In this document: one piece after another, positions 7,604 to 61,342 of the stretch
Layout of the letters: each line of letters starts with the position of its first letter
Position numbering within the stretch: the stretch's first letter is position 1
From: Novosphingobium sp.
Lineage (GTDB): Bacteria > Pseudomonadota > Alphaproteobacteria > Sphingomonadales > Sphingomonadaceae
NCBI RefSeq assembly: GCF_030699305.1
Contig: NZ_JAUYNB010000021.1
Location: 62,001-126,000 of the forward strand
Reading direction: 5' to 3'
Length of the DNA: 64,000 nt
Notes under the pieces: model-generated
Seen by the model: only the letters and a program-made list of their open reading frames with translations
Told to the model about the DNA's origin: nothing
The model's database searches: none
Made by a program: the position numbers and the translations under genes

Positions 7604-7621
7604 TTCAGGAAAGCGGGCGGC

Positions 7622-11572: not shown

Positions 11573-11647
11573 TTGCGCCTCCCGCTCCCCCGACTTACGC
11601 CAGTGGAGCCTAGCGGTTACCGGCAGTTACGCAACCGGCCCGGAAAG

Positions 11648-11959
11648 TCAGGCGTGGGAGGTCTGGCAAATCTCGCACAGCGAATGGATGATTGCGCGCA
11701 CGACCGGGTCGGTCAGCCGGTAAAACCGCACTTGCGCTTCGGCGCGGATGCCGACGATATCTTCATCGCGGAGCATCGCCAGATGCTGCGAGACGGCCGA
11801 TTGCGACAATCCGGTCAGCGCGATCAGTTCACTGACCGAAACCTCCCCCTCGTCCATCCGGCACAGCATCAGCAGCCGTTCCGGATGGCTCATGATCCGC
11901 AGACGCGTGGCCATGCGGTTGGCGTTCGATTTCAGTTCGGTCAGATCACTGGGCGTCAT
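11648..11959 (-). CDS. bigR: ArsR-family repressor, BigR/SqrR-like sulfide sensor
   Basis: A 103-residue winged-helix protein. The recognition helix region is LTGLSQSAVSQHLAMLRDE, followed by a beta-wing (VRFYRL). It has Cys33 (in LMLC) and C-terminal Cys95 and Cys98 (CEIC). BigR and SqrR use one Cys near the N-terminal helix and one near the C-terminus to form a sulfur bridge with persulfide, and Cys33 plus Cys95 or Cys98 fit that layout. It is divergent from a persulfide dioxygenase and a TauE exporter, the classic BigR regulon. The call rests on this context and the cysteines; metal sensing is the alternative. Confidence 0.8.
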   Translation of the reverse strand: MTPSDLTELKSNANRMATRLRIMSHPERLLMLCRMDEGEVSVSELIALTGLSQSAVSQHLAMLRDEDIVGIRAEAQVRFYRLTDPVVRAIIHSLCEICQTSHA

Positions 11960-11997
11960 AGGCAGGGCAGGCTTCCGGAAAATAACATTTACACTTG

Positions 11998-12028
11998 CTA
12001 ATATAAAGGTGTGTGCATATTAGTAATA
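11998..12028. promoter_or_regulatory. AT-rich operator candidate for the BigR-like repressor
   Basis: In an otherwise GC-rich region, CTAATAT (11998-12004) and its exact reverse complement ATATTAG (12017-12023) are 12 bp apart. A second overlapping symmetry, TATTA-G-TAATA (12018-12028), follows. The site lies about 40 bp upstream of the repressor ATG and about 150 bp upstream of the dioxygenase, where one ArsR-type repressor could control both directions. Confidence 0.5.
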
Positions 12029-12059
12029 CACAATATGAGAGCGTGAGTCGAGTCCCCCT

Positions 12060-12147
12060 GTTCCGCTGCGCTTCCCCCCAAATCTGGCGCGGCGGAACAC
12101 CACGGCGGCGATCCCGGTCCGACAACGGAGCCGAGCCGGGATCGCCG
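12060..12147 (+). other. Two tandem 12-bp hairpins in the persulfide dioxygenase leader
   Basis: Stem 1 pairs 12060-12071 with 12087-12098 (12 pairs, one G-U, 15-base loop). Stem 2 pairs CGGCGATCCCGG (12106-12117) with CCGGGATCGCCG (12136-12147), 12 perfect pairs with an 18-base loop. Neither is followed by a T-run, so they are not simple terminators. They lie between the operator and the dioxygenase start. Possible roles are mRNA stability, translation control or a remnant repeat; the function is unknown. Confidence 0.6.
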
Positions 12148-12178
12148 TTCGCGCGGTGGCTTGGCGTGAAGCTGGCAG

Positions 12179-13117
12179 ATGGATCAGAATGCGATGACCG
12201 ACACCGTGCTTGAAGCCGCTATTGCCCAGATCACTGCCGCGCGCGCCGCCGGACGTGTGCCGGTGGTCAAGACGTTTTTCGATGAGCCGACCTTCACCGC
12301 CACCCATATAATCCATGATCCGGTGACCCGCCGCGCCGCGATTGTCGATTCCGTGCTCGATTTCGACCAGCCTTCGGGCCGCACCAGCCACGCATCCGCC
12401 GATGCGGTGATCGCCTATGTCCGGGCGGAAGGGCTGACCGTGAACTGGCTGCTGGAAACCCACGCCCATGCCGACCACCTGTCCGCTGCGCCGTATCTGA
12501 AGCAACAGCTGGGCGGGCAGATCGCCATCGGCGCGGAAATCCGCACCGTGCAGGATGTGTTCGGCAAAGTGTTCAACGAACCGGCCAGCTTTGCGCGGGA
12601 TGGATCGCAGTTCGATCACTTGTTCAGCGATGGCGAACGTTTTGCGCTGGGCGATCTGGAAGTGATCGCGCTGCACGTGCCGGGGCATACCCCGGCCTGT
12701 CTGGCTTATGTCATCGGCGATGCGGTGTTCGTGGGCGATACGCTGTTCATGCCGGACTATGGCACCGCCCGCGCCGATTTCCCCGGCGGCGATGCGCGCG
12801 TGCTGTTTCGCTCGATCCGCCGCCTGATGGCATTGCCGCCCGAAACGCGGGTGTTCCTGTGCCACGATTACAAGGCACCGGGGCGCGACGCGTTCATCTG
12901 GGAAACGACCATCGGGGCAGAGGTTGCGGCCAACGTCCATGTCCACACCGGCGTGGCCGAGGATGATTTCGTGACCATGCGTGAGGCGCGCGACGCCACA
13001 CTGGCGATGCCCCGGCTGATCCTGCCGTCGGTGCAGATCAACATCCGCGCCGGGCATTTTCCGGAGCCTGAGGAAAACGGCGTCCGTTACCTCAAGCTGC
13101 CGCTGAACCTGCTGTAA
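12179..13117 (+). CDS. blh: Persulfide dioxygenase-like MBL-fold hydrolase (Blh/ETHE1 type)
   Basis: A 312-residue metallo-beta-lactamase-fold protein. The metal motif THAHADH is at about 94-100, a further ligand sits in VPGHTP, and the family-specific MPDYGTARADFPGGDA follows. This places it with bacterial ETHE1/Blh non-heme iron persulfide dioxygenases, which oxidise glutathione persulfide to sulfite and glutathione. Starts at 12179 and 12194 (MTDTVLEAA) are both possible; neither has a strong ribosome site. The exporter gene follows 4 bp after the stop, consistent with sulfite being made and then expelled. Confidence 0.85.
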   Translation: MDQNAMTDTVLEAAIAQITAARAAGRVPVVKTFFDEPTFTATHIIHDPVTRRAAIVDSVLDFDQPSGRTSHASADAVIAYVRAEGLTVNWLLETHAHADHLSAAPYLKQQLGGQIAIGAEIRTVQDVFGKVFNEPASFARDGSQFDHLFSDGERFALGDLEVIALHVPGHTPACLAYVIGDAVFVGDTLFMPDYGTARADFPGGDARVLFRSIRRLMALPPETRVFLCHDYKAPGRDAFIWETTIGAEVAANVHVHTGVAEDDFVTMREARDATLAMPRLILPSVQINIRAGHFPEPEENGVRYLKLPLNLL

Positions 13118-13121
13118 GCCG

Positions 13122-13904
13122 GTGGAGCACCTGCAATATATCCTCTCGGCGCTGAGCGGCATCCTCGTCGGGTTCTCATTGGGGCTGGTCGGTGGGGGCG
13201 GGTCGATCCTGGCCGTGCCGCTGATGGTCTATGTGATCGGCGTGAAAAGCCCGCATATCGCCATTGGCACCAGCGCGCTGGCGGTGGCGGCAAATGCGCT
13301 TGCCGGATTGGCCAGCCATGCGCGCGCCCACAACGTCAACTGGCGCTGCGGCGGGGCTTATGCGCTGGCCGGGGTGCTTGGCGCGTTTGCCGGATCGAGC
13401 GCGGGCAAGGCGTTCGACGGTGAAAAGCTGCTGTTCCTGTTTGCGCTGCTGATGGTCGTGGTCGGCGCGCTGATGTTCCGCCAGCGCGGCGATGCGGGCG
13501 TCGAAGGCGTGGTCTGCAACCGCGACAACTTCCCCAAGGTCGGCGCGTTCGGGTTCGGCACCGGGGCGCTCTCGGGCTTTTTCGGGATCGGCGGCGGTTT
13601 CCTGATCGTGCCGGGACTGGTGCGGTCCACCGCCATGCCGATCTACCGGGCGATCGGCACGTCACTGGTCGCGGTCAGCGCATTCGGGCTGACCACCGCG
13701 TTCAACTACGCGGTATCGGGCCTGATCGACTGGCCGGTTGCCGCCAGCTTCATCAGCGGCGGCGTGATCGGCAGCGTGGCGGGCACGGCTGCTTCGACCC
13801 GGCTGGCGGCACACAAGGGCATGCTGAGCACCGTGTTCGCGGTGATGATCCTGTTTGTCGCGGGCTATACAATCTACCGCAGCTGGGGCGCGTTGTTCGG
13901 CTAG
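13122..13904 (+). CDS. TauE/SafE-family sulfite exporter-like permease
   Basis: A 260-residue membrane protein with about eight hydrophobic segments in two repeats. Each repeat starts with a glycine-rich motif: GLVGGGGSILAVPLM near residue 20 and GFFGIGGGFLIVPGL near 155, the hallmark of TauE/SafE permeases. The start is GTG at 13122, four bases after the dioxygenase stop, so translation is likely coupled. In BigR operons this protein removes sulfite made by the dioxygenase; that role is inferred. The stop overlaps the end of the convergent SDR gene by 4 bp. Confidence 0.85.
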   Translation: MEHLQYILSALSGILVGFSLGLVGGGGSILAVPLMVYVIGVKSPHIAIGTSALAVAANALAGLASHARAHNVNWRCGGAYALAGVLGAFAGSSAGKAFDGEKLLFLFALLMVVVGALMFRQRGDAGVEGVVCNRDNFPKVGAFGFGTGALSGFFGIGGGFLIVPGLVRSTAMPIYRAIGTSLVAVSAFGLTTAFNYAVSGLIDWPVAASFISGGVIGSVAGTAASTRLAAHKGMLSTVFAVMILFVAGYTIYRSWGALFG

Positions 13905-14677
13905 GCGTTCCTTGCCATCAGTCCGCCATCGACCGGGATCGTCACGCCGGTGATGTAACTGGCTGCCGGAAGGCACAGGCTGAGCGTGATGTGCGCCACT
14001 TCCTCCGGCGCGCCATAGCGGCGCAGCGCGGTGCGGCGGTGGGCGTACGTGGTCTTGTCGGCGTCGGGCACTTTTGCGGTCATGCCGGTGTCGATCGGGC
14101 CGGGGCAGATCGCATTGACGGTAATTCCGTCGCGCCCCAGTTCCACCGCCAGCGCGCGGGTCAGGCCGGTGACGCCCGCCTTGGCGGCGCAATAGGGGCT
14201 GTCGCGCGAGGTGGCGCCCAGCGCCTCGGTCGAGGCGATGTTGACAATGCGCGGGCTGGACGATTGCCGCAAATGGGGCAGGGCGGCGCGGATGATCCGC
14301 TGGTGCGCGCTCAGCAGTACCACGACGGCGCGGTCCCAGATCAGGTCATAGCCGTCATCGTCAATCGGGCAGAACGCGCTGATCCCGGCGTTATTGACCA
14401 CCGCGTCCAGCCCGCCGAACGTGGCGGCAACATCATCCACAACGTGCCGGATTGCGGCGTGGTCGCTGACGTCCAGCGCCCAGGCTTTCGCGTTATACCC
14501 TTGTGCGACCAGATCCGCCGCAACCTGGTCCAGCGCCGGGCCGGGCAGATCGGTCACGGCCACGTTCGCGCCTTCAGCCGCAAAGACTTGCGCCGTCGCG
14601 CGGCCCATCCCGCTGGCCGCGCCCGTGACCAGCACCGTCTTGCCCGCGACCGAGCGGCTGAGGTTCAATCCTGTCAT
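13901..14677 (-). CDS. Short-chain dehydrogenase/reductase (SDR)
   Basis: A 258-residue classical SDR: NAD(P)-binding TGAASGMG near the N-terminus, NNAG in VVNNAGIS, the catalytic Tyr-x-x-x-Lys as YCAAKAG, and the C-terminal ICPGPIDTGM and ITGVTIPVDGG. The catalytic Ser region reads NIASTEAL. An aspartate after the second strand (VTDLPG) favours NAD(H). The ATG at 14677 is preceded by GGGAAG; the longer frame starting at 14716 is less likely. The substrate is unknown. It converges on the TauE gene and has no functional partner next to it. Confidence 0.82.
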   Translation of the reverse strand: MTGLNLSRSVAGKTVLVTGAASGMGRATAQVFAAEGANVAVTDLPGPALDQVAADLVAQGYNAKAWALDVSDHAAIRHVVDDVAATFGGLDAVVNNAGISAFCPIDDDGYDLIWDRAVVVLLSAHQRIIRAALPHLRQSSSPRIVNIASTEALGATSRDSPYCAAKAGVTGLTRALAVELGRDGITVNAICPGPIDTGMTAKVPDADKTTYAHRRTALRRYGAPEEVAHITLSLCLPAASYITGVTIPVDGGLMARNA

Positions 14678-14722
14678 GTCATCATCTTCCCGTTTGATTT
14701 GCCCGCAACCAACCACCTAACC

Positions 14723-14738
14723 CCGTTCGTGTCGAGCG
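14723..14738. repeat. Half copy of the palindromic repeat found in btuD
   Basis: CCGTTCGTGTCGAGCG matches exactly the first 16 bases of the left arm of the 67-bp palindrome at 47351. Here it stands between the SDR and the regulator genes, and the second arm is missing. Confidence 0.55.
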
Positions 14739-14762
14739 AAGCGGGGCGCGGAGCGAGCAATT

Positions 14763-16157
14763 TCAGTCGTTGTCGAACCCGAACGGCGCGGTATCGCGGC
14801 GGAAATCGTCGGGCAGGATTTCACGGCCCACCGGCGGCACGGCGCGGGCGGTGCAGGCGGGGCGGTTGCACAAGCGGCAGGTGACGCCGATGGGGGTAGG
14901 CTCAGGGGCGATATCGCTGCGCGCGTAAGCGATTTTCGGTGCGTGTTCGGCGGCGCAGGCCAGCGCAATGGCGCGGGTGACGGCTGGCCGGTCAAACGTG
15001 CCGCCCCCCGCGCGCACGGTCCGTGCGATCGAGAAGAACCGCTGGCCGTCGGGCAGTTCCAGAAACTGCGTGATGACTTCGCCCGGCGTGCGGAACACCG
15101 AATGGACGCTCCACAGCGGACAGCCGCCGCCATGCGCCGCGAACGGAAAGCCCGCGCCGTCCAGCCGCTTGGACACGTTCCCGGCCTGATCTACGCGGAT
15201 GAAGAAGAACGGAATGCGCAGCATCCCCGGCTTGTTCAGCGTGGTCAGCCGGTGGGCGACTTGTTCGAAGCTGGTGCCGAACTGGCGGCTCAGCGCCTCG
15301 ATGTCATAGGCCCGGGCCTCGACCGCGCGGGCGAACCGGTCATAGGGCATCAGGATCGCCGCTGCGCCGTAAGACGCGAGGGCGCGCCGGACCAGACTGG
15401 TGGCGGTCGGGCTGGCGAATTCCTCCGCCCGGACGATGGCGGCGATCTCCTTGCGCAGCGCGGTATAGGCGATGTGCGTGGCGATCTGGAACGCGCGGCT
15501 GGCGGCGTCGAGCGTGTCATCGATCAGCAGTTGCTCGTTGTGCCGGTCATAACGGCGCAGCGCATCCATCATCACGTCGGGCGGCAGGAACCGCACGCGG
15601 ACGCCGGTCGTACTACGCAGCCATTCCGCCGCGCTGCCGGCCTTGGCAATTTCGGCGGCGATCTCTTCGGCGCGGGTATCGATGGCGTGGAAATAGTTGC
15701 GCTGGCTGGCCACGAACCGGCGCGCTTCAGCCACGGGATCGGAGGCGCCGGGGGCATCGCGCTGTTCGGCCAGCGCGCGCTGTTCCTTGGTATACGCGCC
15801 GTGCAGCCGCAGCAGCGCCTCGCTCACGCCGGGAAAGCTGGAGGCGAGGTCGGCGATTTCCAGCGCGGGCAGGTCGATATCGGCAAAGATCGGATCGCGC
15901 AGCATGTCGGACAGGCGGCGGGCGTAATCGTCGCTGTCTTCGCCTGCGAAATCGGCCAGGTCGAACTTGTAGCTTTTGGCCAGCCGCAGCAGCAGGTCCG
16001 CCGTCAGCGGGCGCTGGTTGCGTTCCAGCAGCGCGACATAGCTGGGCGAAATGCCCAGATCGCCCGCCATCGTCTGCTGGGTCAGTCCCAGTTCGCGGCG
16101 CAGTCGCTTGAGGCGCGGACCAAGGTAAAGGGGGCGGGATTCGGCCATGAGCGCCAT
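14763..16157 (-). CDS. RamB/ScfR-like XRE regulator of short-chain fatty acid metabolism
   Basis: About 464 residues from the ATG at 16157 (16148 is also possible). It has an XRE helix-turn-helix (LTQQTMAGDLGISPSYVALLERNQRPLT spans it, near residues 20-50), a middle IrrE/ImmA-like region without a clear HExxH, and a cysteine-bearing C-terminal domain with CRLCNRPAC. This is the layout of RamB and MccR-type short-chain fatty acyl regulators, which control isocitrate lyase and methylcitrate or acetate genes. It is divergent from isocitrate lyase over an inverted repeat, so that gene is the likely target. Confidence 0.82.
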   Translation of the reverse strand: MALMAESRPLYLGPRLKRLRRELGLTQQTMAGDLGISPSYVALLERNQRPLTADLLLRLAKSYKFDLADFAGEDSDDYARRLSDMLRDPIFADIDLPALEIADLASSFPGVSEALLRLHGAYTKEQRALAEQRDAPGASDPVAEARRFVASQRNYFHAIDTRAEEIAAEIAKAGSAAEWLRSTTGVRVRFLPPDVMMDALRRYDRHNEQLLIDDTLDAASRAFQIATHIAYTALRKEIAAIVRAEEFASPTATSLVRRALASYGAAAILMPYDRFARAVEARAYDIEALSRQFGTSFEQVAHRLTTLNKPGMLRIPFFFIRVDQAGNVSKRLDGAGFPFAAHGGGCPLWSVHSVFRTPGEVITQFLELPDGQRFFSIARTVRAGGGTFDRPAVTRAIALACAAEHAPKIAYARSDIAPEPTPIGVTCRLCNRPACTARAVPPVGREILPDDFRRDTAPFGFDND

Positions 16158-16175
16158 TCTGTCATTTCTGCACAA

Positions 16176-16198
16176 CTTTACAAGGAAAAGGTGTAAAG
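16176..16198. promoter_or_regulatory. Inverted repeat between the ScfR-like regulator and aceA
   Basis: CTTTACA (16176-16182), 9 bp, then TGTAAAG (16192-16198): perfect 7-bp arms. A further partial half-site CTTACA follows at 16200-16205. It lies about 20 bp upstream of the regulator start and about 105 bp upstream of aceA. This is a likely operator for autoregulation and aceA control. Confidence 0.55.
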
Positions 16199-16268
16199 CC
16201 TTACAGGCTGACTCCGCATGACCTTTCGGGGCGCAGCGCGGCGCGGCATTGGGCGTCCCACAGATCGT

Positions 16269-16283
16269 GCCCCGCTGCGGGGC
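16269..16283 (+). other. Small hairpin in the aceA leader
   Basis: GCCCC (16269-16273) pairs with GGGGC (16279-16283) around GCTGC. It lies 20 bases before the aceA ATG and just upstream of the AAGGGA ribosome site. It may stabilise the 5' end; no further role can be claimed. Confidence 0.35.
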
Positions 16284-16303
16284 AAAAGCCAAGGGACAGT
16301 GTA

Positions 16304-17899
16304 ATGACCTATCAGCAGACCATCACCGAAGCCGGTCAGGAAATCGGCCGTTTCCAGCAGACCTGGAACGGGATCGAAGCTGAATCCGTGGCGCGGATGC
16401 GGCTCCAGAACAGGTTTCGGACCGGGCTGGATATCGCCCGCTATACCGCGAAGATCATGCGTGATGACATGGCTGCCTATGATGCCGATCCGGCGGCCTA
16501 CACCCAGTCGCTGGGTTGCTGGCACGGGTTCATCGGCCAGCAGAAGATGATTTCCATCAAGAAGCACTTCGGCAGCACCAAGGGCCGCTACCTCTATCTG
16601 TCGGGCTGGATGGTCGCCGCGCTGCGTAGCGATTTCGGCCCGTTGCCGGATCAGTCGATGCACGAAAAGACCACCGTGCCGATGCTGATCGAAGAACTCT
16701 ACACGTTCCTGCGTCAGGCCGATGCCCGCGAACTGGGCATGTTGTTCCGCGATCTCGACGCTGCCCGCGCCGCCGGGGATGAGGTCAAGGCCAAGCAGAT
16801 CAGCCACGCGATCGACACCCATCAGACCCACGTCGTGCCGATCATTGCCGACATCGACGCGGGCTTCGGCAACGCGGAAGCGACCTACCTGCTGTCCAAG
16901 CAGATGATCGAAGCCGGTGCGTGCTGCATCCAGATCGAAAACCAGGTGTCCGACGAAAAGCAGTGCGGCCATCAGGACGGCAAGGTTACCGTCCCGCATG
17001 AAGACTTCCTCGCGAAGATCCGCGCGGTCCGTTACGCATTCATGGAACTGGGCGTCGAAGACGGCGTGATCGTGGCCCGCACGGACTCGCTCGGCGCGGG
17101 CCTGACCAAGCAGATCGCCTTCACCCGCGAAGCTGGCGACATTGGCGATCAGTACAACAGCTTCCTCGATTGCGATGAAGTCGATCCCGCCAACCTGGGC
17201 CACGGCGATGTGCTGATCAGCCGGGATGGCAAGCTGATGCGCCCGAAGCGGTTGCCGTCGAACCTCTATCAGTTCCGTCCGGGCACCGGCGAAGACCGCT
17301 GCGTGCTCGACAGCATCACCTCGCTTCAGAACGGCGCGGACTTGCTGTGGATCGAAACCGAAAAGCCCCACATCGCGCAGATCGCGGGCATGGTTGACCG
17401 CATCCGCGAAGTGATCCCGAATGCCAAGCTGGTCTACAACAACTCGCCCAGCTTCAACTGGACGCTGAACTTCCGCCAGCAGGTGTTCGATGCGTGGACG
17501 GCCGAAGGCAAGGACCTGTCCGCTTATGACCGGGCCAGGCTGATGAGCGTGGATTACGACGGCACCGATCTGGGCAACGAAGCCGACGAACGCATCCGCA
17601 CGTTCCAGCGCGATGCCGCCGCGCGCGCCGGTATCTTCCACCACCTGATCACGCTGCCGACCTACCACACCGCCGCGCTCAGCACCGACAATCTGGCGAA
17701 GGAATACTTCGGCGATCAGGGCATGCTGGGCTATGTCAAGGGCGTCCAGCGTCAGGAAATCCGTCAGGGCATCGCCTGCGTGAAGCACCAGAACATGTCC
17801 GGCAGCGACATTGGCGACGATCACAAGGAATACTTCGCCGGTGAAGCCGCGCTCAAGGCCGGCGGGTCCGCCAATACTATGAATCAATTTGCGGCCTGA
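16304..17899 (+). CDS. aceA: Isocitrate lyase
   Basis: A 531-residue glyoxylate-shunt enzyme splitting isocitrate into succinate and glyoxylate. The active-site loop reads KQCGH (219-223) with catalytic Cys221; many other lyases have KKCGH. Length and the KQCGHQDGKVTVPH segment fit the longer pseudomonad/alphaproteobacterial class. FNWTLNF carries substrate-binding residues. AAGGGA precedes the ATG at 7 bases. It is monocistronic, with a hairpin terminator 63 bp downstream. Malate synthase is not in the window. Induction on acetate through the divergent ScfR-like regulator is likely. Confidence 0.95.
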   Translation: MTYQQTITEAGQEIGRFQQTWNGIEAESVARMRLQNRFRTGLDIARYTAKIMRDDMAAYDADPAAYTQSLGCWHGFIGQQKMISIKKHFGSTKGRYLYLSGWMVAALRSDFGPLPDQSMHEKTTVPMLIEELYTFLRQADARELGMLFRDLDAARAAGDEVKAKQISHAIDTHQTHVVPIIADIDAGFGNAEATYLLSKQMIEAGACCIQIENQVSDEKQCGHQDGKVTVPHEDFLAKIRAVRYAFMELGVEDGVIVARTDSLGAGLTKQIAFTREAGDIGDQYNSFLDCDEVDPANLGHGDVLISRDGKLMRPKRLPSNLYQFRPGTGEDRCVLDSITSLQNGADLLWIETEKPHIAQIAGMVDRIREVIPNAKLVYNNSPSFNWTLNFRQQVFDAWTAEGKDLSAYDRARLMSVDYDGTDLGNEADERIRTFQRDAAARAGIFHHLITLPTYHTAALSTDNLAKEYFGDQGMLGYVKGVQRQEIRQGIACVKHQNMSGSDIGDDHKEYFAGEAALKAGGSANTMNQFAA

Positions 17900-17961
17900 C
17901 GCCGCGGGGGAACCAGTTCGCGGCCTGACCGTCGCACAAACCATCCTGGGGAGGATGCATT

Positions 17962-17992
17962 GGCCCGTCGCACTTCGGTGCGGCGGGCCTTT
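17962..17992 (+). terminator. aceA terminator
   Basis: A 12-bp stem (17962-17973 with 17978-17989, one G-U) closed by a stable TTCG tetraloop and followed by TTTC. A smaller hairpin CATCCT-GGGG-AGGATG stands just before it (17942-17957). It lies between the convergent aceA and MFS genes, so it may serve both strands. Confidence 0.7.
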
Positions 17993-18007
17993 CGCTGCTG
18001 GCACCGT

Positions 18008-19549
18008 TCAGGGCCTTGGCAGCGTGACCTTGCGCATCAGCAGAACGATCGGCACCGCTGCCAGCGTCACCCACGCCATCGCGTAGAAATCGTTGATATA
18101 GGCGACCATCATCGCCTGCCGGGTCACTTCGCCATCGATCATCCGCACCGCCGTTTCGCCGACGGCCTGGAACCGGTCGATCGTGGTGATGTCGATGGCT
18201 TCGGTGAACGATCCATCGACATGGGTGGCCAGGTCCGCATGGCTGATCTGCACGTTGCGGGCGAACAGCGTGGTGCAGATCGAGATGCCGACCGATGCCC
18301 CCAGCGACCGCGACAGGTTGAGCAGACTCGCCCCTTCGGTCCGCATCGTCGGCGGCAGCGTGGAAAAAGCGGCGTTGTTGAGCGGGATGAACACCAGCCC
18401 CATGCCCAGCCCCTGGATAACCCCCGTCACCAGGATGTGCCAGCTGTCCACTTCCAGCGACCAGCCCGACATCATCCACAACGATATGCCCGCCAGCAGG
18501 AAACCCAGCATCATGATCGGCCGTGCATCGACCCCCCGGCGCACCAGAATGCCCGATACCTGCATGGAGATCAGCGTGCCGACCCCGCGCGGCATCAGTG
18601 CCCAGCCGGTGTCGATCACGCTGTAGCCGAACAAGTGCTGCATCATCGGCGGCAGCAGCGCCATGGATGCCATCATCACCATCCCGACCACGATCATCAA
18701 CAGCAGCGACACCGCAAAGTTCGGATCGGCAAACAACTCGCGCCGGAACAGCGGATCGCTTGTGGTGGTCAGGTGGATCATCCCAATCCAGGTCGCCGAA
18801 ACGGTGATCGCGGCGTAGATCCAGATCTCGAGAGATTCGAACCAGTCGAGATGATTGCCCCGGTCCAGCAGCAGTTGCAGCGATCCCAGCGCCAGCGCGA
18901 CCAGCGCAAAACCGAACATGTCAAACCGCCGTTCGCTCCTGGGGCGGTCGGGCAATTCGGCAATCAGGATCACCAGCGAAACGATCCCCAGCGGCAAGTT
19001 GATGTAGAACACCCAGCGCCAGTTCCACTCCTCGGTCAGCCACCCGCCCATGATCGGGCCAAGGATCGGGCCGATCATCACGCTCATCCCCCACAGCGCC
19101 ATCATCTGCGGCTGCCGTGAAGGCTTGGTGCTGTCGATCATGGCGGCCTGGCTAAGCGGGCTGATGAACGATCCGGTGACCCCCTGCAATGCGCGGAATA
19201 TGACCATGCTGGTCATGTTCTGCGCCATGCCGCACAGCATGGACGAGATGATGAACCCCGCGACTGACCAGATGAACAGCCGCCGCGTGCCGACGCGTTC
19301 TGCCAGCCAGCCGGTGATCGGCATGGCAATGGCGGCGGCGACGATATAGCTGGTCAGCACCCAGTTGATCGTATCCGCATTCGCCCCAAGCGATGTCTGC
19401 ATATGGGGCACCGCAACGTTGGCGATCGTGGTATCGAGGATCTGCAACAGCGCCGCGATCATGACGCCCAGCATCATCAGCCTGTGGTTGCGGACCGGAT
19501 AGAGCGGAACGTCCGCTTCGGTGGGCAGGAGGGCGGGGGCGCTGGCCAT
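18008..19549 (-). CDS. DHA2-family multidrug efflux MFS permease (EmrB-like)
   Basis: A 513-residue inner-membrane drug:H+ antiporter of the 14-segment DHA2 family. Early motifs include LDTTIANVAVPHM (motif D1) and GWLAERVGTRRLF (motif A), with TGSFISPLSQA in the motif C region. It follows the membrane-fusion gene by 9 bp, which in turn overlaps a MarR gene, giving an EmrAB-like operon that would export hydrophobic compounds or fatty acids across both membranes with an outer-membrane channel encoded elsewhere. The substrate is unknown. Confidence 0.88.
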   Translation of the reverse strand: MASAPALLPTEADVPLYPVRNHRLMMLGVMIAALLQILDTTIANVAVPHMQTSLGANADTINWVLTSYIVAAAIAMPITGWLAERVGTRRLFIWSVAGFIISSMLCGMAQNMTSMVIFRALQGVTGSFISPLSQAAMIDSTKPSRQPQMMALWGMSVMIGPILGPIMGGWLTEEWNWRWVFYINLPLGIVSLVILIAELPDRPRSERRFDMFGFALVALALGSLQLLLDRGNHLDWFESLEIWIYAAITVSATWIGMIHLTTTSDPLFRRELFADPNFAVSLLLMIVVGMVMMASMALLPPMMQHLFGYSVIDTGWALMPRGVGTLISMQVSGILVRRGVDARPIMMLGFLLAGISLWMMSGWSLEVDSWHILVTGVIQGLGMGLVFIPLNNAAFSTLPPTMRTEGASLLNLSRSLGASVGISICTTLFARNVQISHADLATHVDGSFTEAIDITTIDRFQAVGETAVRMIDGEVTRQAMMVAYINDFYAMAWVTLAAVPIVLLMRKVTLPRP

Positions 19550-19558
19550 CGGCGCAGA

Positions 19559-20641
19559 TCAGCGCTTTACGGTGTCGTCGATCAAGACCTTCACCTTGGC
19601 CGAAAGTCCCGCCAGCAACGGACGCGGGCTGGCGTCGTCCAAGGCAATGCGCACCGCCACGCGCTGGGTCACTTTCACCCAGTTGCCGGTCGCATTCTGC
19701 GCGGGAAGCATCGAAAACTCGCTGCCGGTTCCGGCCCCGATCGAGGCGACATGCCCGTTCAGCGTGACATCCGGATAGGCATCGAACCTGATCTCTGCCC
19801 GTTGGCCGGGGCGCATGCGGTCGAGATCGGTTTCCTTGAAGTTGGCTTCGACATAGCCGCCCTGGCTGGCGACGATGGTAACCACCGGCAGTCCGGAAAT
19901 CGCCTGCTGTCCCACCAGCAGGCGGCTGGCCTGTGACAGACGCCCGGCGATCGGCGCGCGCACGTCGGTGCGGCGCAAGTTGAGCTCTGCGGCGGCACGC
20001 TGCGCGCGGGCCTGCGCGACCTGTGGATTGACGCCGGGAACCTGCGCCCCGGTAGCCAGCCGGGCTGATGCTTCGCGCGCCTTGGCCTGGGCAAGGTTCA
20101 GTTCCTCGCGCGCTTGCTGCACCGTATGTTGCGCAGCATCGAAGGCCGCCTTGGTGGTGAAGCCGCGCTCCATCAACGCTTGCTGGCGGACAAAGTTTGA
20201 CTGGGCAAAAGCCACGCTTTCGCGCGCGGCGGCAATATCGGAACCCGACAGCGCACTGGCGTTCGACAGCGCAACCACATTGGCCTGCGCCGCAGCAATC
20301 GCCGCATCGGACTGCGCAATCTGCAACTGATAGGGTTCAGGATCGATCTGGAACAGCAGGTCGCCTGCTTTGACCGTCTGGTTGTCACGCACCGCGACAG
20401 CGATGATCCGTCCGCTGATTTCCGCGCTGACCGATACCTTGTCCTGTTTGACATAGGCATTGTCGGTGGACACCTGACCTTGCAGGCTGAGCCAATACCA
20501 GCTGCCCGCGGTCAGGATCAGCACCGGGACGGACAGCATCGCCAGCAGTCGCCCGAAGTGGCGCTTGGGCGGCGGCGCGGCGGCGTCAGTGTTCGGGACG
20601 GTGTCGTCGCCAGCCGGGAAAGTGGGGTCTGCTTCAGCCAT
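19559..20641 (-). CDS. HlyD/EmrA-family membrane fusion protein
   Basis: A 360-residue periplasmic adaptor with one N-terminal membrane anchor (about 31-50), a biotinyl-lipoyl-like domain (STDNAYVKQDKVSVSAEISG and later VRAPIAGRLSQAS), and an alpha-hairpin (about 115-215) rich in Ala, Gln and Arg heptads. It bridges the DHA2 permease to an outer-membrane channel. Its ATG overlaps the end of the MarR gene by 8 bp, so regulator, adaptor and permease are one operon. Confidence 0.88.
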   Translation of the reverse strand: MAEADPTFPAGDDTVPNTDAAAPPPKRHFGRLLAMLSVPVLILTAGSWYWLSLQGQVSTDNAYVKQDKVSVSAEISGRIIAVAVRDNQTVKAGDLLFQIDPEPYQLQIAQSDAAIAAAQANVVALSNASALSGSDIAAARESVAFAQSNFVRQQALMERGFTTKAAFDAAQHTVQQAREELNLAQAKAREASARLATGAQVPGVNPQVAQARAQRAAAELNLRRTDVRAPIAGRLSQASRLLVGQQAISGLPVVTIVASQGGYVEANFKETDLDRMRPGQRAEIRFDAYPDVTLNGHVASIGAGTGSEFSMLPAQNATGNWVKVTQRVAVRIALDDASPRPLLAGLSAKVKVLIDDTVKR

Positions 20642-55984: not shown

Positions 55985-56020
55985 TCGCGCAGTCACTATC
56001 GTAATTTCATAAACACGAAC

Positions 56021-56038
56021 TTTTCATGCACGCGAAAA
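56021..56038. promoter_or_regulatory. Inverted repeat in the LigM-like gene promoter
   Basis: TTTTC (56021-56025) and GAAAA (56034-56038) are 8 bp apart in the AT-rich part of the 120-bp spacer before the O-demethylase gene. It could be an IclR-type site; the arms are short and the link is tentative. Confidence 0.3.
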
Positions 56039-56104: not shown

Positions 56105-57496
56105 ATGGCTGATACGCTTGAAACCATGCTCGGCGGGACGGGCGATATCGTGGAACTGCTGCGCAACCAGCAGGTCGGCCCAAATGTCTATCCCGGCGTT
56201 CCGGCGGAATATTCCAACTGGCGCGCCGAACAGTGGGCGTGGCAGCACACCGCGGTGCTCTATAACCAGAGCTACCACATGGTCGATCTGGAAGTGCGCG
56301 GGCCGGATGCGTTCGCGATGCTGGAGTATCTGGCGATCAATTCGTTCAAGGGCTTTGTCCCCGACAAGGCCAAGCAGTTTGTGCCGGTGACCCCCTATGG
56401 TCACGTGATCGGCGACGTGATCCTGTTCTATCTGGAAGAACAGCGGTTCAACCTGGTCGGCCGCGCGCCCTCGATCGAGTGGGTGGAATTCCACGCCGCG
56501 TCGGGCAAGTGGAACGTGGAAGTCGAGCGCGATGAGCGCTGGGCGATGCGCACCGATGGCAAGCGCAAGAACTATCGCTTCCAGGTGCAAGGCCCCAACG
56601 CGATGAAGATCATCGAACGGGCCACCGGGATCGTGCCGCCCGACCTCAAGTTCTTCAACATCACCCACCTGACTATCGCGGGCAAGACCGTCCACGCGCT
56701 GCGCCACGGGATGGCCGGGCAGCCGGGCTGGGAACTGTATGGTCCGTGGGAAGACTACGGCGCGGTCCATGCCGCATTGGTCGAAGCGGGCAAGGAATAT
56801 GGCATGGCACTGGTCGGCGGCCGGGCCTATTCATCCAACACGCTGGAATCGGGCTGGATTCCGTCGCCGCTGCCCGCGATCTATACCGGGGATGAACTGA
56901 AGCCGTTCCGCGAATGGCTCTCGGCCAATTCCTATGCCGGCAAGTGCTCGATCGGCGGTTCCTATGTGCCGGACAGCATCGAGGGCTATTACCTGACCCC
57001 GTGGGATCTGGGTTACGGTCCGTTCGTGAAGTTCGATCACGATTTCATCGGCCGCGCGGCGCTGGAAAAGATCGCTGCCGGACCGCACCGCAAGAAGGTG
57101 ACGCTGGCGCTCGACAACGAAGACGTGATCCGCGTCCAATCCTCGGCACTGTCGAAGGGCGACCGGGCGAAGTTCATGGAATATCCCAGCGCCGTCTATG
57201 CGATGCACCCGTTTGACGAAGTGCGCGCCGAAGACGGCAGCCTGGCGGGCCTGTCGACCTGGATCGGTTACACCGCGAACGAGGGCAAGTTCCTGACGCT
57301 GGCGATGCTCGATGCGAAGTATGCCGAACCCGGCACCAGGGTCTCGCTGATCTGGGGTGAGCCGAACGGCGGCACCAGCAAGCCCACTGTCGAACCCCAC
57401 GTGCAGACCGCGATCAAGGCGATTGTGGCGGCAACGCCCTATGTCGAGGCGGCGCGCGACAACTATGCCGATGGGTGGCGGACGAAGGGGGCCTGA
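56105..57496 (+). CDS. LigM-like tetrahydrofolate-dependent aromatic O-demethylase
   Basis: A 463-residue GcvT-like (aminomethyltransferase) protein. NWRAEQWAWQHTAVLYNQSYHMVDL and KQFVPVTPYGHVIGDVI resemble LigM of Sphingobium, which moves the methyl of vanillate or 3-O-methylgallate to tetrahydrofolate. DesA is a close relative. PGWELYGPWEDYG and the C-terminal GcvT_C barrel fit the fold. It is about the same length as LigM. The genes next to it (IclR, NTF2-like, MetE-like) point to a methyl-transfer role, but the aromatic substrate is unproved; DMSP- or glycine-type demethylation is less likely. Confidence 0.78.
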   Translation: MADTLETMLGGTGDIVELLRNQQVGPNVYPGVPAEYSNWRAEQWAWQHTAVLYNQSYHMVDLEVRGPDAFAMLEYLAINSFKGFVPDKAKQFVPVTPYGHVIGDVILFYLEEQRFNLVGRAPSIEWVEFHAASGKWNVEVERDERWAMRTDGKRKNYRFQVQGPNAMKIIERATGIVPPDLKFFNITHLTIAGKTVHALRHGMAGQPGWELYGPWEDYGAVHAALVEAGKEYGMALVGGRAYSSNTLESGWIPSPLPAIYTGDELKPFREWLSANSYAGKCSIGGSYVPDSIEGYYLTPWDLGYGPFVKFDHDFIGRAALEKIAAGPHRKKVTLALDNEDVIRVQSSALSKGDRAKFMEYPSAVYAMHPFDEVRAEDGSLAGLSTWIGYTANEGKFLTLAMLDAKYAEPGTRVSLIWGEPNGGTSKPTVEPHVQTAIKAIVAATPYVEAARDNYADGWRTKGA

Positions 57497-57497
57497 G

Positions 57498-58280
57498 CTA
57501 GATCCCGGCCAGGCTCGCGGCCGCGCGGGCCAGCGCGGCGCGGGCCTTGGCCGCGACGTGCGGGTTGAACCGCACAGCGGGGATAGCGACGGCAAACGCG
57601 CCGACGGCCTCCCCGTTCAGCCATGCCGCCGCGCCAAGCCCGCAGATGCCGGGGGTGTTTTCCTCATGCGCTTCGGCCACCCCGTCACGCCGGATCTGTT
57701 CCAGCGCGGCGCTCAGCGCGGTTTCATCGACCAGCGTGTGCGGGGTAAAGCGCGGGCGTGGGCATTCGGCGAAATAGCGCGCCAGTTCGGCTTCGGGCAG
57801 GGTGGCGAGGATCGCCTTGCCCGCGGCGAGGGCGTGGAGCGGCTTGCGGTGGCCGGGTTCGATTGCATAGCGCAGCGCCTGCCCGCTCGCCTCGGTCACC
57901 AGCGCTTCGACTTCCCAGCCGGTGCGAACCATGAAGCTGGCGGTTTCATCGAGTTCGCGGCGCAAGATATTGACCAGCGGCTCCACCCGGTCAGCCAGGG
58001 TCAGGTCGGCCGGCGGCGCGGTCAGCCGGCGCAGGCCCGGTCCGGCCCGGTAACGGCGACCATCGCGGATCAGGTATTCGCGCTCGGCCAGCGTGCCCAG
58101 CAGGTAGAACAGGCTGGACACCGGAATGTCGAGCGCGGCGGCGATGTCCTGCGCGATCGGGCCTTGCGGATGGGCGACCACGAATTCAATGATATCGAGC
58201 GTGCGCAGCGCCGATTTGACCGTATTGGACGGGTTTGGGTTGGCCGTGTTTGGGTTGGCCGATTTGGCTGTCTGGGGCAT
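57498..58280 (-). CDS. IclR-family transcriptional regulator
   Basis: A 260-residue regulator: winged helix-turn-helix (about 20-85, IAQDIAAALDIPVSSLFYLLGTL) and the C-terminal IclR ligand domain with GICGLGAAAWLNGEAVGAFAVAIPA. IclR proteins often control aromatic acid catabolism. It overlaps the NTF2-like gene by 1 bp (TAATG) and ends facing the LigM-like gene with 1 bp between the stops. The N-terminus carries a 15-bp in-frame tandem duplication giving ANPNT ANPNP. Confidence 0.87.
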   Translation of the reverse strand: MPQTAKSANPNTANPNPSNTVKSALRTLDIIEFVVAHPQGPIAQDIAAALDIPVSSLFYLLGTLAEREYLIRDGRRYRAGPGLRRLTAPPADLTLADRVEPLVNILRRELDETASFMVRTGWEVEALVTEASGQALRYAIEPGHRKPLHALAAGKAILATLPEAELARYFAECPRPRFTPHTLVDETALSAALEQIRRDGVAEAHEENTPGICGLGAAAWLNGEAVGAFAVAIPAVRFNPHVAAKARAALARAAASLAGI

Positions 58281-58669
58281 TACCAGGCCAGCGATCCGCG
58301 CCGCTCGGCAAAGCGCCAGCCCTCGGCAGTCAAAACGAACCGGTCGTGGAACGATCCGGCCAGCGGCGCGGCGCCCTCGCTGAACAGCACCATTGCGCTG
58401 GTGCCGCGCGCGGCGGCGGGGCCTTCCACATCGATCACGACGTTGGAGCAGACGTGCCGGGTCTTGCGCGGCGGGCGGCTCTGGAACGCGGCCAGGATCG
58501 CCGCGCGGCCGCTGATCGGCGCATCCGGCGCGGTCGGACGGGTCATCAGCCCGTCCTCGGCATAGAGCGCGGCAAGCTCGGCCCAGCGGGCCTCGTCATT
58601 GAGGTTGGCGTAAAGCGCGATCAGCCGCGCGCAGTCAGCCTCAATCGCGCGGCGTTCGTCACCCGTCAC
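58280..58669 (-). CDS. NTF2/SnoaL-like protein
   Basis: A 129-residue single-domain protein of the cone-shaped NTF2-like fold: IEADCARLIALYANLND, WAELAALYAEDGLM and a C-terminal strand with FVLTAEGWRFAERRG. Related proteins serve as small isomerases, cyclases or ring-hydroxylating dioxygenase beta subunits; none can be chosen here. The start is GTG at 58669, overlapping the MetE-like stop by 4 bp, so it is translationally coupled to that gene and to iclR. Confidence 0.72.
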   Translation of the reverse strand: MTGDERRAIEADCARLIALYANLNDEARWAELAALYAEDGLMTRPTAPDAPISGRAAILAAFQSRPPRKTRHVCSNVVIDVEGPAAARGTSAMVLFSEGAAPLAGSFHDRFVLTAEGWRFAERRGSLAW

Positions 58670-59799
58670 AGGCGGCTCGCGGCGATATCCGCGCCTTCGC
58701 GCAAGTTGCGCAGCTTGCGCCAGGTGACGATGGGGTCGATCTTGCCATAGCCCGCGAACGTGCCGAAGCCGCAATCGGTGCTGGCGACCACGCGGTCGGC
58801 TCCGACGATGTCGGCGAAGCGCTCGATCCGCTGGGCGATCAGCTCAGGATGCTCGACATAGTTGGAACAGGTGTCGATCATGCCGGGGGCCAGGATCTTC
58901 CAGTCGGGCAGCCTGGCATCACGCCAGACTTTCCATTCGTGTTCGTGGCGGGGGTTGGCGGCTTCGAACAGGACAGTGGCAGGGCGGGCGCCGACGACGA
59001 TGTCGATCACCTTTTCCAGCGCGATGTCATGATCGTGCGGGCCTTCGTAGTTGCCCCAGCACACGTGCATCCGCATCCGTTCGGGCGGAATGTTGGCGGT
59101 GGCGGCGTTCAGCGCCTCGACATTGGCGGCGGCGATTTTCAGGAACTCCGCGTCGCTGGCATCCTGATACCCGGTGTGGCGGCTCATCGCGAGGTCGGGG
59201 CAATCGAGCTGAAGGTAGAAGCCGGCATTGACGATCGTTTCGTATTCCTCGCGCATCGCATCGACCAGCGCGGCCAGATAAGCCTCGTGGCTGGGGTAGA
59301 ACCGGTTGACCTGAAACGCGGTAATCAGCCCCGGCGAGGCGGCGTTCATGAACGCTTCGGTATCCGGCCCGGCCTGCTTGTCGAGCGCGGCGCGGAACCG
59401 GCGGATATCATCGTGGAGCGGCTCCAGCGTGATCAGCTTGACCTCGTCGATGCAACTGGCGCGGACGAAATCCTGGCTGCCCATCATCACCGACAGCTTT
59501 TTGGCAAGGTCTGGCACTTCGGCCAGATCGGCGGCAGGCTTGCGATCCGTATGCCCGCCAAAGCCGGACAGCCGTTCGATCATGTAAGTCGAATAGCCGA
59601 CCTTGCCCAGTTCGCCGTCCGATACCACGCTGACGCCTGCCGCGACCTGCTGCTTCACCGCTTCTTCCACGGCGGCGCTGACCACCCGGTCGAACTCGGC
59701 CGCGTCATAGGGTTTGCCCGCATCGCGCGCGAGCAGCAGCGGGGTCAGTTCTTCACCGCGCGGCAGGCTGCCAACATGCGTGGTCTTGATGTGGGTCAT
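58666..59799 (-). CDS. Core-MetE-like (cobalamin-independent methionine synthase C-terminal domain) methyltransferase
   Basis: A 377-residue protein matching only the catalytic half of MetE. The zinc ligands are visible as His-x-Cys in MHVCWGN and Cys in STDCGFG, and the N-terminal TTHVGSLPR is typical. Full MetE is about 750 residues, so this is a core-MetE/YxjG-type or related zinc methyltransferase. The methyl donor may be 5-methyl-THF made by the LigM-like protein next door. It is first in an operon with NTF2-like and iclR. The alternative is a coenzyme M or thiol transferase of the same fold. Confidence 0.78.
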   Translation of the reverse strand: MTHIKTTHVGSLPRGEELTPLLLARDAGKPYDAAEFDRVVSAAVEEAVKQQVAAGVSVVSDGELGKVGYSTYMIERLSGFGGHTDRKPAADLAEVPDLAKKLSVMMGSQDFVRASCIDEVKLITLEPLHDDIRRFRAALDKQAGPDTEAFMNAASPGLITAFQVNRFYPSHEAYLAALVDAMREEYETIVNAGFYLQLDCPDLAMSRHTGYQDASDAEFLKIAAANVEALNAATANIPPERMRMHVCWGNYEGPHDHDIALEKVIDIVVGARPATVLFEAANPRHEHEWKVWRDARLPDWKILAPGMIDTCSNYVEHPELIAQRIERFADIVGADRVVASTDCGFGTFAGYGKIDPIVTWRKLRNLREGADIAASRL

Positions 59800-59832: not shown

Positions 59833-59850
59833 CATTCGCATATATGAATG
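59833..59850. promoter_or_regulatory. Candidate IclR operator upstream of the MetE-like gene
   Basis: CATTC (59833-59837) and GAATG (59846-59850) form inverted arms around CATATATG-rich DNA, with TTTC-GT-GAAA just before (59823-59832). It lies 34-51 bp upstream of the MetE-like start, in a short AT-rich stretch. The IclR protein of the same operon is the natural candidate to bind it. Confidence 0.4.
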
Positions 59851-59875: not shown

Positions 59876-61006
59876 TCACAGCAGCAGGATCACAAAACCC
59901 AGCGCAACGCCAAAGCTGACCACCGTCGCCGCGAGCACCGGCACCGTCGCGCGCCAGCCCATTTCCATCAGCAGGTCCATCCGGCTGCGCATCGCGGTGG
60001 CGGTAACAGCCAGCAGCAGCAGCGCCTTTGACCCGACCAGCGCATAGTGCGACAGCACCGGCGGCATCGTGACCACGCTGTTGAGCGCCACCGTGGCCAG
60101 AAACGCGGTGATGAACCAGGGCATGGCCAGGCGCCTCCACAGCGGCTGTCCGGCGGTGCCTTCGGCCGGGGTCAGCGCCAGCGAGACGAGCGCGACGACC
60201 GGGGCCAGCAGTGCGACGCGGGCCAGCTTGACGATGGTCGCATAGCTACCCGCCGCGTCGGAAAAGGCATAGCCGCCGCCGATGGCCTGCGCGACGTCAT
60301 GGATCGAAGCGCCGATCAGGAACCCGGCCTGCCGGTCTGACAGCGCAAATTCCTCGGCCAGCATGGGATAGACCGACATCGCAAACGCGCTGGCGAGCGA
60401 GATGCCCACCAGCGTCAGCGCGAACTGGGCCTGACTGAGCCGGTGTTTGCCGATCACGCCATAGAGCGCGAGTGCCGCGCTCGCCCCGCAGATCGCGGTC
60501 GCACCGCCTGCCAGCATCCCGGCATAAGTTGACTGCCCGCTGATCCGGCTGCCCACCACGCCCGCCAGGATCGTCGCCGCCATGACCACCACCAGCGCGC
60601 CGAATGGCGCAGGCCCCAGCGCGCCGATCTGGGCGAAGGTCACTTGCAGCCCCAGCATCACAATCCCGATCCGCAGGCAGGTGCGCGAGGCGAAATCGAG
60701 CCCCAGATGGGTGCGCGGATCGCGCGCGATGAAGTTCAGCGACAGGCCGACCAGCAGCCCCAGCAGGATGATCGGAAAGCCATAGTGTTCGGACAACCAC
60801 GCCGCCGCCGCCGCCGCCACGCCGCAGATCGCCAGGCCGGGAAACAGCGTTTCCCTGGGCTTATCGGCCTTCGGCGCGGTTTCGGCCAGGTGCATCTCAC
60901 CGAACAGGTCGCCGCCATAGGGCAGCGTATCCCAGTCAACCTGAGCCATGCCACGTCCGTCGCCGGCGTTCGGGCCTGCCCCGGTATTTCTGTCCTGCGG
61001 TGTCAT
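59876..61006 (-). CDS. YeiH-family putative sulfate exporter-like membrane protein
   Basis: A 376-residue membrane protein of the YeiH (PF03601) family with about ten segments. Typical motifs are RDPRTHLGLDFASRTCLRIGIVMLGLQ, CGASAALAL and GASIHDVAQAIGGGYAFSD. The family has been called sulfate exporters, but the substrate is rarely proven. The ATG at 61006 follows AAGGA; a longer frame to 61183 is unlikely. There is a 336-bp gene-free stretch upstream (61007-61342), in which I see no other gene, only the CTCTCC/GAGAG mini-palindrome near 61034-61053. Confidence 0.82.
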   Translation of the reverse strand: MTPQDRNTGAGPNAGDGRGMAQVDWDTLPYGGDLFGEMHLAETAPKADKPRETLFPGLAICGVAAAAAAWLSEHYGFPIILLGLLVGLSLNFIARDPRTHLGLDFASRTCLRIGIVMLGLQVTFAQIGALGPAPFGALVVVMAATILAGVVGSRISGQSTYAGMLAGGATAICGASAALALYGVIGKHRLSQAQFALTLVGISLASAFAMSVYPMLAEEFALSDRQAGFLIGASIHDVAQAIGGGYAFSDAAGSYATIVKLARVALLAPVVALVSLALTPAEGTAGQPLWRRLAMPWFITAFLATVALNSVVTMPPVLSHYALVGSKALLLLAVTATAMRSRMDLLMEMGWRATVPVLAATVVSFGVALGFVILLL

Positions 61007-61342
61007 ATCCCGCTTTCCTTGTTCATCTGGCGTGCCCGCCTCTCCGGGAGAGTGTTTTGTCGCCTCCGAATCAGAGCGCATAGACGATGGCTTGGGCAAC
61101 ATCGCAATAGCCCATAGATGCCGTGAATGCTGCAAGGCGCAAGACTGAGGAACAGCGTCGCGTTGAGAAGTTCGTCCACGCATCCGGCCTGAGAAGGAGG
61201 TTTCAGGAGGCGCGCGCCTGTCAGGCTATCCCCACATGCAGGAAGCCGACAGGTTTGCGCGGCCATTTTCCATGCGCGATGCAAGCGCACCCGCTGCGAC
61301 GGATCAAAGGCGAAATGCCGGGTTGGGGGCTTGATGGGGAAA

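Follow-up and report, generated by a model that had tools for sequence, protein, structure and literature searches.

The DNA described here is a 64,000 nt stretch of a Novosphingobium sp. genome (contig NZ_JAUYNB010000021.1, nt 62001 – 126000); this whole stretch is referred to as the window, and positions are counted from its first letter. Towards its end lies a locus of four genes, consisting of the O-demethylase gene desA and, on the opposite strand, genes for a half-size MetE-like protein, an NTF2-like protein and an IclR regulator. This may represent a syringate-responsive O-demethylation locus in which a core-MetE protein passes a small share of the methyl groups to homocysteine, a reading held tentatively and at slightly less than even confidence. 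In outline, DesA would move a methyl group from syringate to tetrahydrofolate (THF), and a DesX-type IclR protein would most likely keep desA as well as the metE-like/NTF2/iclR genes repressed in the absence of syringate. The MetE-like protein would be a core-MetE homocysteine S-methyltransferase, with zinc holding homocysteine as the thiolate; the methyl donor would be the 5-methyl-THF made by DesA, used directly or via an unspecified step, and methionine would be formed without vitamin B12. Only a small part of the methyl flow would be tapped in this way, the bulk of the 5-methyl-THF being oxidised by methylenetetrahydrofolate reductase (MTHFR)-like, FolD and PurU enzymes whose genes lie in other parts of the genome, and the NTF2-like protein would probably serve this aromatic pathway too, as a small lyase or isomerase. 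A well-studied lignin enzyme is tied here to an uncharacterised core methionine synthase-like protein via co-occurrence, linkage and a common operator-like site. If the reading is true, some bacteria may build methionine from the methyl groups of wood aromatics.

Co-occurrence of desA and the metE-like gene

The demethylase gene (nt 56105 – 57496, forward strand, 463 amino acids) had been called LigM-like in a preliminary description of this DNA. Its product does pass the LigM model (606.4 bits, cut-off 580), but the best NCBIfam match is NF047633 (DesA), at 872.5 bits against a cut-off of 800. Since the DesA score is far above the LigM score, LigM was rejected as the identity of this gene, and the product is DesA, a THF-dependent syringate O-demethylase and not the vanillate/guaiacol enzyme, its activity in this strain being predicted from homology. 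The nearest PDB match is the solved LigM structure. For comparison, the DesA of a SYK-6-type genome (G314, see below) scores 854.9 bits on NF047633, and a separate, true LigM of the window genome, located on contig C18, scores 898 bits on the LigM model. In N. aromaticivorans, desA is reported to be required for growth on syringate, and the THF-dependent conversion of syringate to 3-O-methylgallate to have been shown for its DesA (both in PMC8091115).

Lack of co-conservation of the two arms had been named beforehand as a possible refutation of the proposed module. In the 149 genomes of the genus that were surveyed, DesA and the MetE-like protein occur together in 55, the MetE-like protein alone in one (G075), DesA alone in three and neither in 90; the corresponding numbers for 196 genomes of the order are 17, 1, 2 and 176, these counts, like the Fisher values calculated from them, ignore shared ancestry and come from samples overlapping in some genomes. 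Clades were delimited by gaps in identity to the window proteins, which for the MetE-like protein fall between 75 and 50% (genus) or 71 and 50% (order), and for DesA between 66% and a next group at about 58% (genus) or 62 and 55% (order). So delimited, the MetE-like clade is present in 56 of the 66 genus genomes with any match and DesA in 58 of the 68 with a match at E 1e-100 (18 of 31 and 19 of 23 in the order). A 74% fragment was left out of the genus MetE-like count, its genome being counted anyway, and a partial match of 79% was counted. Chance neighbourhood was rejected on these numbers.

Physical linkage was followed in named loci of relatives, which are the best 80 of 409 matching and come mostly from Novosphingobium, the remainder being from Sphingomonas, Sphingobium, Sphingosinicella, Croceicoccus, Alteraurantiacibacter and others. 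The stretch retrieved includes DesA in 61 of the 80, and the arms are linked in 45 of the 58 loci with full-length stretches. Their layout varies, the arms facing each other, diverging, or running in one direction (desA, metE-like, NTF2 in L115), and in G028, G078 and the SYK-6-type genome they are far apart yet both present. With near-perfect co-occurrence, linkage and a common palindrome (see below), the two arms are co-conserved, and the proposal that they belong together survives. The same data bear on the alternative that this is a neighbourhood by descent, in which the MetE-like/NTF2 pair serves another aromatic pathway, such as that of beta-aryl ethers or ferulate, and is merely in the DesX regulon. 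Among 96 loci (the 80 named and 16 further ones, some from the same genomes) a LigE gene occurs in 26, a ferB-type gene in 9 and a ferA-type gene in 8 (LigE by NCBIfam, fer by eye), as such a pathway would have it. Genomes without DesA lack the pair, however (neither in 90/149 and 176/196), and co-occurrence persists where the arms are unlinked, which makes descent alone an improbable explanation.

The arm opposite desA lies entirely on the reverse strand and comprises the metE-like gene (nt 58666 – 59799, 377 amino acids), the gene for the NTF2/SnoaL_4-fold protein (nt 58280 – 58669, 129 amino acids; PF13577) and iclR (nt 57498 – 58280; PF09339 and PF01614). The start of the second is likely the GTG at nt 58669. 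All four genes of the preliminary description were recovered with their coordinates, and its overlapping genes are indeed head-to-tail with shared ends: the metE-like stop and the NTF2 GTG start overlap as GTGA, and the NTF2 stop and the iclR ATG as TAATG. Because of these overlaps, translational coupling of the three genes is likely.

Both arms are preceded by operator-like palindromes. Upstream of desA are TTCATAAACACGAA (nt 56006 – 56019) and, 17 bases beyond it, TTCATGCACGCGAA (nt 56023 – 56036), and upstream of the metE-like/NTF2/iclR genes is TTCGCATATATGAA (nt 59835 – 59848). The general form TTCRYNNNNRYGAA, picked by eye from the window before it was counted in relatives, has one further, distant site at nt 5804, giving four in the window against 0.87 expected; 2 of 100 shuffles reach four. 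In relatives, using 150-base windows with a background of 0.5% per window, the palindrome was found in 49 of 79 metE-like promoters and in 27 of 57 desA or hydrolase-desA promoters, the loci being related and non-independent and the gene starts extrapolated from tblastn matches (upstream sequence was sufficient at 79 of the 80 named MetE-like loci and at 57 desA genes). None was found in the LigM loci of ten genomes scanned, five of them in loci of about 4.4 kb only. The SYK-6-type genome has a perfect palindrome before its hydrolase-desA genes and an IclR gene after desA, to which the window iclR product is 53% identical.

In SYK-6, desA is repressed by DesX, an IclR-type protein responsive to syringate (as cited in PMC12314914). 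The window gene encodes IclR domains, adjoins desA and is accompanied by a palindrome upstream of desA, and is a probable desX orthologue. In N. aromaticivorans the IclR protein Saro_2407, which by locus number adjoins ligE (Saro_2405) and desA (Saro_2404), gave just two peaks in DNA affinity purification sequencing (PMC12352068), a number that fits two local operators. The window IclR protein would accordingly be predicted to control both the desA and the metE-like promoters.

Several other genes were noted at desA loci. In many lineages an alpha/beta hydrolase gene lies directly upstream of desA, apparently in one operon (L211, nt 13788 – 14540; L099, L237 and others); that of L099 is PcaD-like by NCBIfam, below the cut-off. 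For SYK-6, the 2020 work of Araki on DesX reportedly describes an SLG_25010-desA operon and an 18-bp repeat. In many Novosphingobium loci (L074 – L108, e.g. L077 and L087) a LigE-type beta-etherase gene (513.8 bits on NF042997 in L108) separates iclR from desA, and no match to it was found in the 64-kb window. Upstream of the metE-like gene, the window carries a gene for a YeiH-type putative sulfate exporter (PF03601; nt 59876 – 61183), which among the 80 named loci was seen solely in L071 (N. arvoryzae) and so is probably not part of the module.

The MetE-like protein as a candidate methionine synthase

Meth_synt_2 (PF01717, 41 bits) is the only Pfam domain of the MetE-like protein, which is therefore a half-size MetE made up of the catalytic barrel; the N-terminal domain of MetE, Meth_synt_1, was found in none of 43 selected genomes. 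Its AlphaFold2 model, with a mean predicted local distance difference test (pLDDT) score of 92.9, has the core-MetE fold. The best structural match (VIA-align) is MesD of Shewanella (3rpd; Z 38.2 over 321 residues, root-mean-square deviation 2.2), followed by the C-terminal halves of MetE (Z about 34). When the protein is aligned by profile to chains of MetE and MesD, the zinc ligands fall on H245, C247, E279 and C343, and the homocysteine residues on S11, E63 and D199, the roles being those listed in PMC7857596. None of the seven varies in any of 101 distinct relatives of at least 70% identity, and in 24 more distant relatives S11 and E279 are each kept in 23 and the other five in all. With these residues retained, methyl transfer to homocysteine is chemically plausible.

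MesD itself was rejected as the identity of this protein. It scores 43.7 bits on PRK09121 (cut-off 392), is 23% identical to the SYK-6-type MesD and has no MesX partner; MesX (PF08908) was not found in the window genome (G000), and two of the 43 genomes have it. We infer that PRK09121 represents MesD from the SYK-6-type gene beside mesX, which passes the model with 596.4 bits. No NCBIfam methionine-synthase model reached its cut-off with the MetE-like protein.

MetH is missing from four of the 43 selected genomes (G314, G167, G178 and G248), as confirmed with the full MetH model. All four also lack MetE and canonical MetF, having only a divergent MTHFR-like protein (33.8 – 39.4 bits), and all four keep both DesA and core-MetE. 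Canonical MetF (at least 275 bits) is present in 17 of 22 genomes searched, and the 77% complete G246 has none. In the window genome and in G258, metF lies beside metH, so the two may be lost as a pair in sphingomonad genomes. G167 and G178 have two further MetE-type paralogues in another locus, and may simply be methionine auxotrophs.

G314 is almost certainly Sphingobium sp. SYK-6, as it contains the published DesR site, ligB beside genes read as ligJ, ligA and ligC, and a ligM followed by MTHFR-like and formate-THF ligase genes. According to PMC6888825, SYK-6 needs methionine on protocatechuate and does not need it when demethylating vanillate or syringate. As G314 has no MetH or MetE, the candidates for its methionine synthase are MesD/MesX and core-MetE. 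MesD/MesX is described as working without methoxy aromatics in S. koreensis (PMC7857596), so that MesD/MesX alone does not explain the dependence of SYK-6. The core-MetE is thus a candidate enzyme for a long-standing methionine need, relieved by vanillate or syringate demethylation, in a genome without metH or metE. In a bolder version of the reading, DesA and core-MetE together would constitute an aryl methyl ether:homocysteine methyltransferase system of two proteins, and the core methionine synthases would thereby gain a fifth family; the GcvT-fold demethylase would stand in for the folate half of MetE, and lignin demethylation would feed methionine synthesis. For SYK-6 and no fewer than three further sphingomonads lacking metE, metH and canonical metF, it would supply methionine, alone or alongside other routes, and it would explain why the methionine auxotrophy of SYK-6 depends on methoxy aromatics; in this form the proposal is regarded as unlikely.

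Fate of the methyl group and the case for a catabolic role

The preliminary description remarked on the absence of metF and ligH, and proposed that the gene set hands the methyl group to a thiol in their place. Within the 64-kb window the absence is real, searches for LigH, MTHFR-like, PurU and FolD proteins giving no match at E 0.001 (one query sequence each). For the genome it does not hold as regards metF: a canonical metF lies beside metH on contig C35, and on contig C18 a divergent MTHFR-like gene follows ligM, with purU divergent from ligM (the ligH search covered the window only). Since the genome keeps metF, metH and the metF-like/purU pair at ligM, a replacement route for methyl-THF is unlikely. 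Relatives carry such genes together with the MetE-like gene, often near desA (MTHFR-like in 21, folD in 23 and purU in 12 of the 96 loci).

The likely size of the methionine branch points the same way. The methionine content of cells is about 0.15 mmol per g (E. coli value). The yield predicted by a model in PMC9028409, 116 mg dry weight per mmol syringate, implies that forming 1 g of cells releases no less than 8.6 mmol methyl. Methionine demand would then take up about 2% of the methyl that syringate gives off, an estimate that combines the model yield with the E. coli methionine content, and the MetE-like protein is therefore not the main methyl outlet unless methionine is exported or degraded. 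Thus, although no gene for one-carbon oxidation was matched in the window and the two arms are co-conserved, the view that the set is the main replacement for metF/ligH, regenerating THF by passing all methyl groups to a thiol, is very improbable, and as a main route it was rejected on the metF-like, purU and folD genes together with the flux estimate. The mechanism of the earlier proposal is thereby weakened, but the acceptor that it named, homocysteine, is the best supported. The fate of the methyl group affects yield, and is of relevance to lignin engineering in Novosphingobium.

A closer rival concerns the NTF2-like protein as well. Its model (pLDDT 97.1) matches a scytalone dehydratase-like protein of N. 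aromaticivorans (3ef8), LdpA and LinA, and D25 and H72 are among the 16 invariant columns of a 40-sequence alignment. Catalysis by LinA involves an Asp/His pair at such positions. Given the fold matches and the invariant pair, a lyase or isomerase is likelier than a carrier, and the protein probably acts in the same aromatic pathway. The MetE-like protein might then be a catabolic zinc-thiolate enzyme of the syringyl pathway that does not serve methionine synthesis. Together with the NTF2-like lyase or isomerase it would act on syringate, 3-O-methylgallate or a ring-cleavage intermediate, and a thiol would serve as the acceptor or nucleophile, much as in epoxyalkane:coenzyme M transferase, a MetE relative. 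That transferase is not among the structural matches listed for the MetE-like model, which does not exclude a relationship.

Many observations weigh against a methionine role, and several of them favour the catabolic one. The MetE-like gene tracks DesA and not LigM, though LigM too makes 5-methyl-THF: five genus genomes have a LigM-type protein without DesA (LigM-type being taken here as 50 – 58% identity to the window DesA instead of a model score, with matches of 40 – 50% left out), and of these G075 alone, whose contig ends about 0.7 kb after iclR, has the MetE-like gene. The order genomes G211 and G246, with LigM-type but no DesA, also lack it, and a requirement for the MetE-like protein in all O-demethylating genomes was rejected on such LigM-only genomes. 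Conversely, DesA occurs without the MetE-like protein in G019, G095 and G148 (genus) and in G307 and G212 (order); in G095 the metE-like gene has been lost naturally while NTF2, iclR and the operator-like palindrome are retained beside desA (L049, nt 7156 – 8425), so that G095 is a naturally occurring test strain. MetH is found almost throughout the genus (141 of 149 genomes), so most carriers do not need the MetE-like gene for methionine. Of the eight MetH-negative genus genomes (57 – 93% complete), only G020 and G142 have a member of the MetE-like clade; both MetH and the MetE-like gene are missing from G147 (93% complete), and G019 (92% complete, 200 contigs), which contains DesA, is without MetH and shows just fragments of MetE-like relatives that are more distant. 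Two of the four MetH-less selected genomes contain MesX, full in G314 and partial at a contig end in G248, and G314 has MesD as well. The palindrome is missing from 30 of the 57 desA and 30 of the 79 metE-like promoters, was not seen at these promoters in the divergent-layout loci L132, L139, L141, L143 and L146, and is lacking at the metE-like gene of the SYK-6-type genome, which lies by ligJABC. Paralogues at 47 – 50% identity are located in catabolic-looking clusters. The Dehalococcoides core-MetE is described as not accepting 5-methyl-THF (PMC7005905).

For the catabolic alternative one may add that the metE-like gene overlaps an NTF2-like gene with invariant Asp and His, that it is accompanied by an NTF2 gene beside ligJABC in SYK-6, that R243, H255, H285 and H287, which are basic as well, do not vary among MetE-like relatives, that MetH is already present in most carriers, and that the paralogues at about 50% identity stand with an alpha/beta hydrolase-like, aldolase-like or CaiB-like gene (by eye, from the beginning of the reading frames). 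On the other side, the homocysteine triad S11/E63/D199 is kept without exception in the 101 close relatives, and all four genomes without MetH and canonical MetF keep the gene. We know of no syringate-pathway step that lacks an enzyme and needs a MetE-like protein. The catabolic role is therefore judged a real if doubtful possibility. It stays a close rival because of the reported rejection of 5-methyl-THF in Dehalococcoides, the DesA-specific tie, the coupling to NTF2 and the ring-cleavage operon neighbourhood in SYK-6.

Two neighbourhoods of relatives are described here, gene calls in relatives being heuristic and neighbours such as LigA, LigC, LigJ, fer, CaiB, aldolase and transporter genes being named by eye. 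In G314 (L208, nt 8832 – 19994), ligJABC (named in part by eye) has the metE-like gene and an NTF2 homologue next to it, far from desA; a homologue of CmcJ/NvfI-like oxidoreductases and two genes resembling those of transporters are also among the neighbours. In L240 (nt 5842 – 8197) and L241 (nt 8446 – 10595), two different half-size MetE-type genes stand in tandem near a CaiB-type coenzyme A transferase-like gene, and possibly represent a two-part zinc methyltransferase of another pathway.

Relation to known systems

In the open-access literature, no description of the metE-like or NTF2 genes as part of the DesA/DesX system was found, and no paper naming Saro_2408 to Saro_2410; judged by locus order, the metE-like gene of N. 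aromaticivorans DSM 12444 is probably Saro_2409. For its parts, the locus can be compared with four known systems. The NTF2-like protein shares its fold with LinA, scytalone dehydratase and LdpA, and its invariant Asp25/His72 recalls the catalytic pair of LinA, but in these matches it is just 15 – 24% identical. The MetE-like protein resembles the core methionine synthases MesA – MesD and the Dehalococcoides core-MetE, as described in PMC7857596 and PMC7005905, in being a half-size MetE that has the zinc and homocysteine residues and no folate domain; it differs from them in that its gene is linked to that of an aromatic O-demethylase and not to one for a corrinoid protein. Like the ligM-metF-ligH operon of SYK-6, the locus encodes a GcvT-fold O-demethylase predicted to produce 5-methyl-THF, whereas desA has neither metF nor ligH with it in the window, its partner here being the core-MetE. 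The closest counterpart is the DesA/DesX system of Sphingobium sp. SYK-6, together with DesA of N. aromaticivorans DSM 12444. There the metE-like and NTF2 genes of SYK-6 are elsewhere, by ligJABC and far from desA; the demethylase, however, belongs to the same family above the NCBIfam cut-off and is likewise accompanied by an IclR gene, and in the SYK-6-type genome a palindrome of this type precedes the alpha/beta hydrolase-desA genes.

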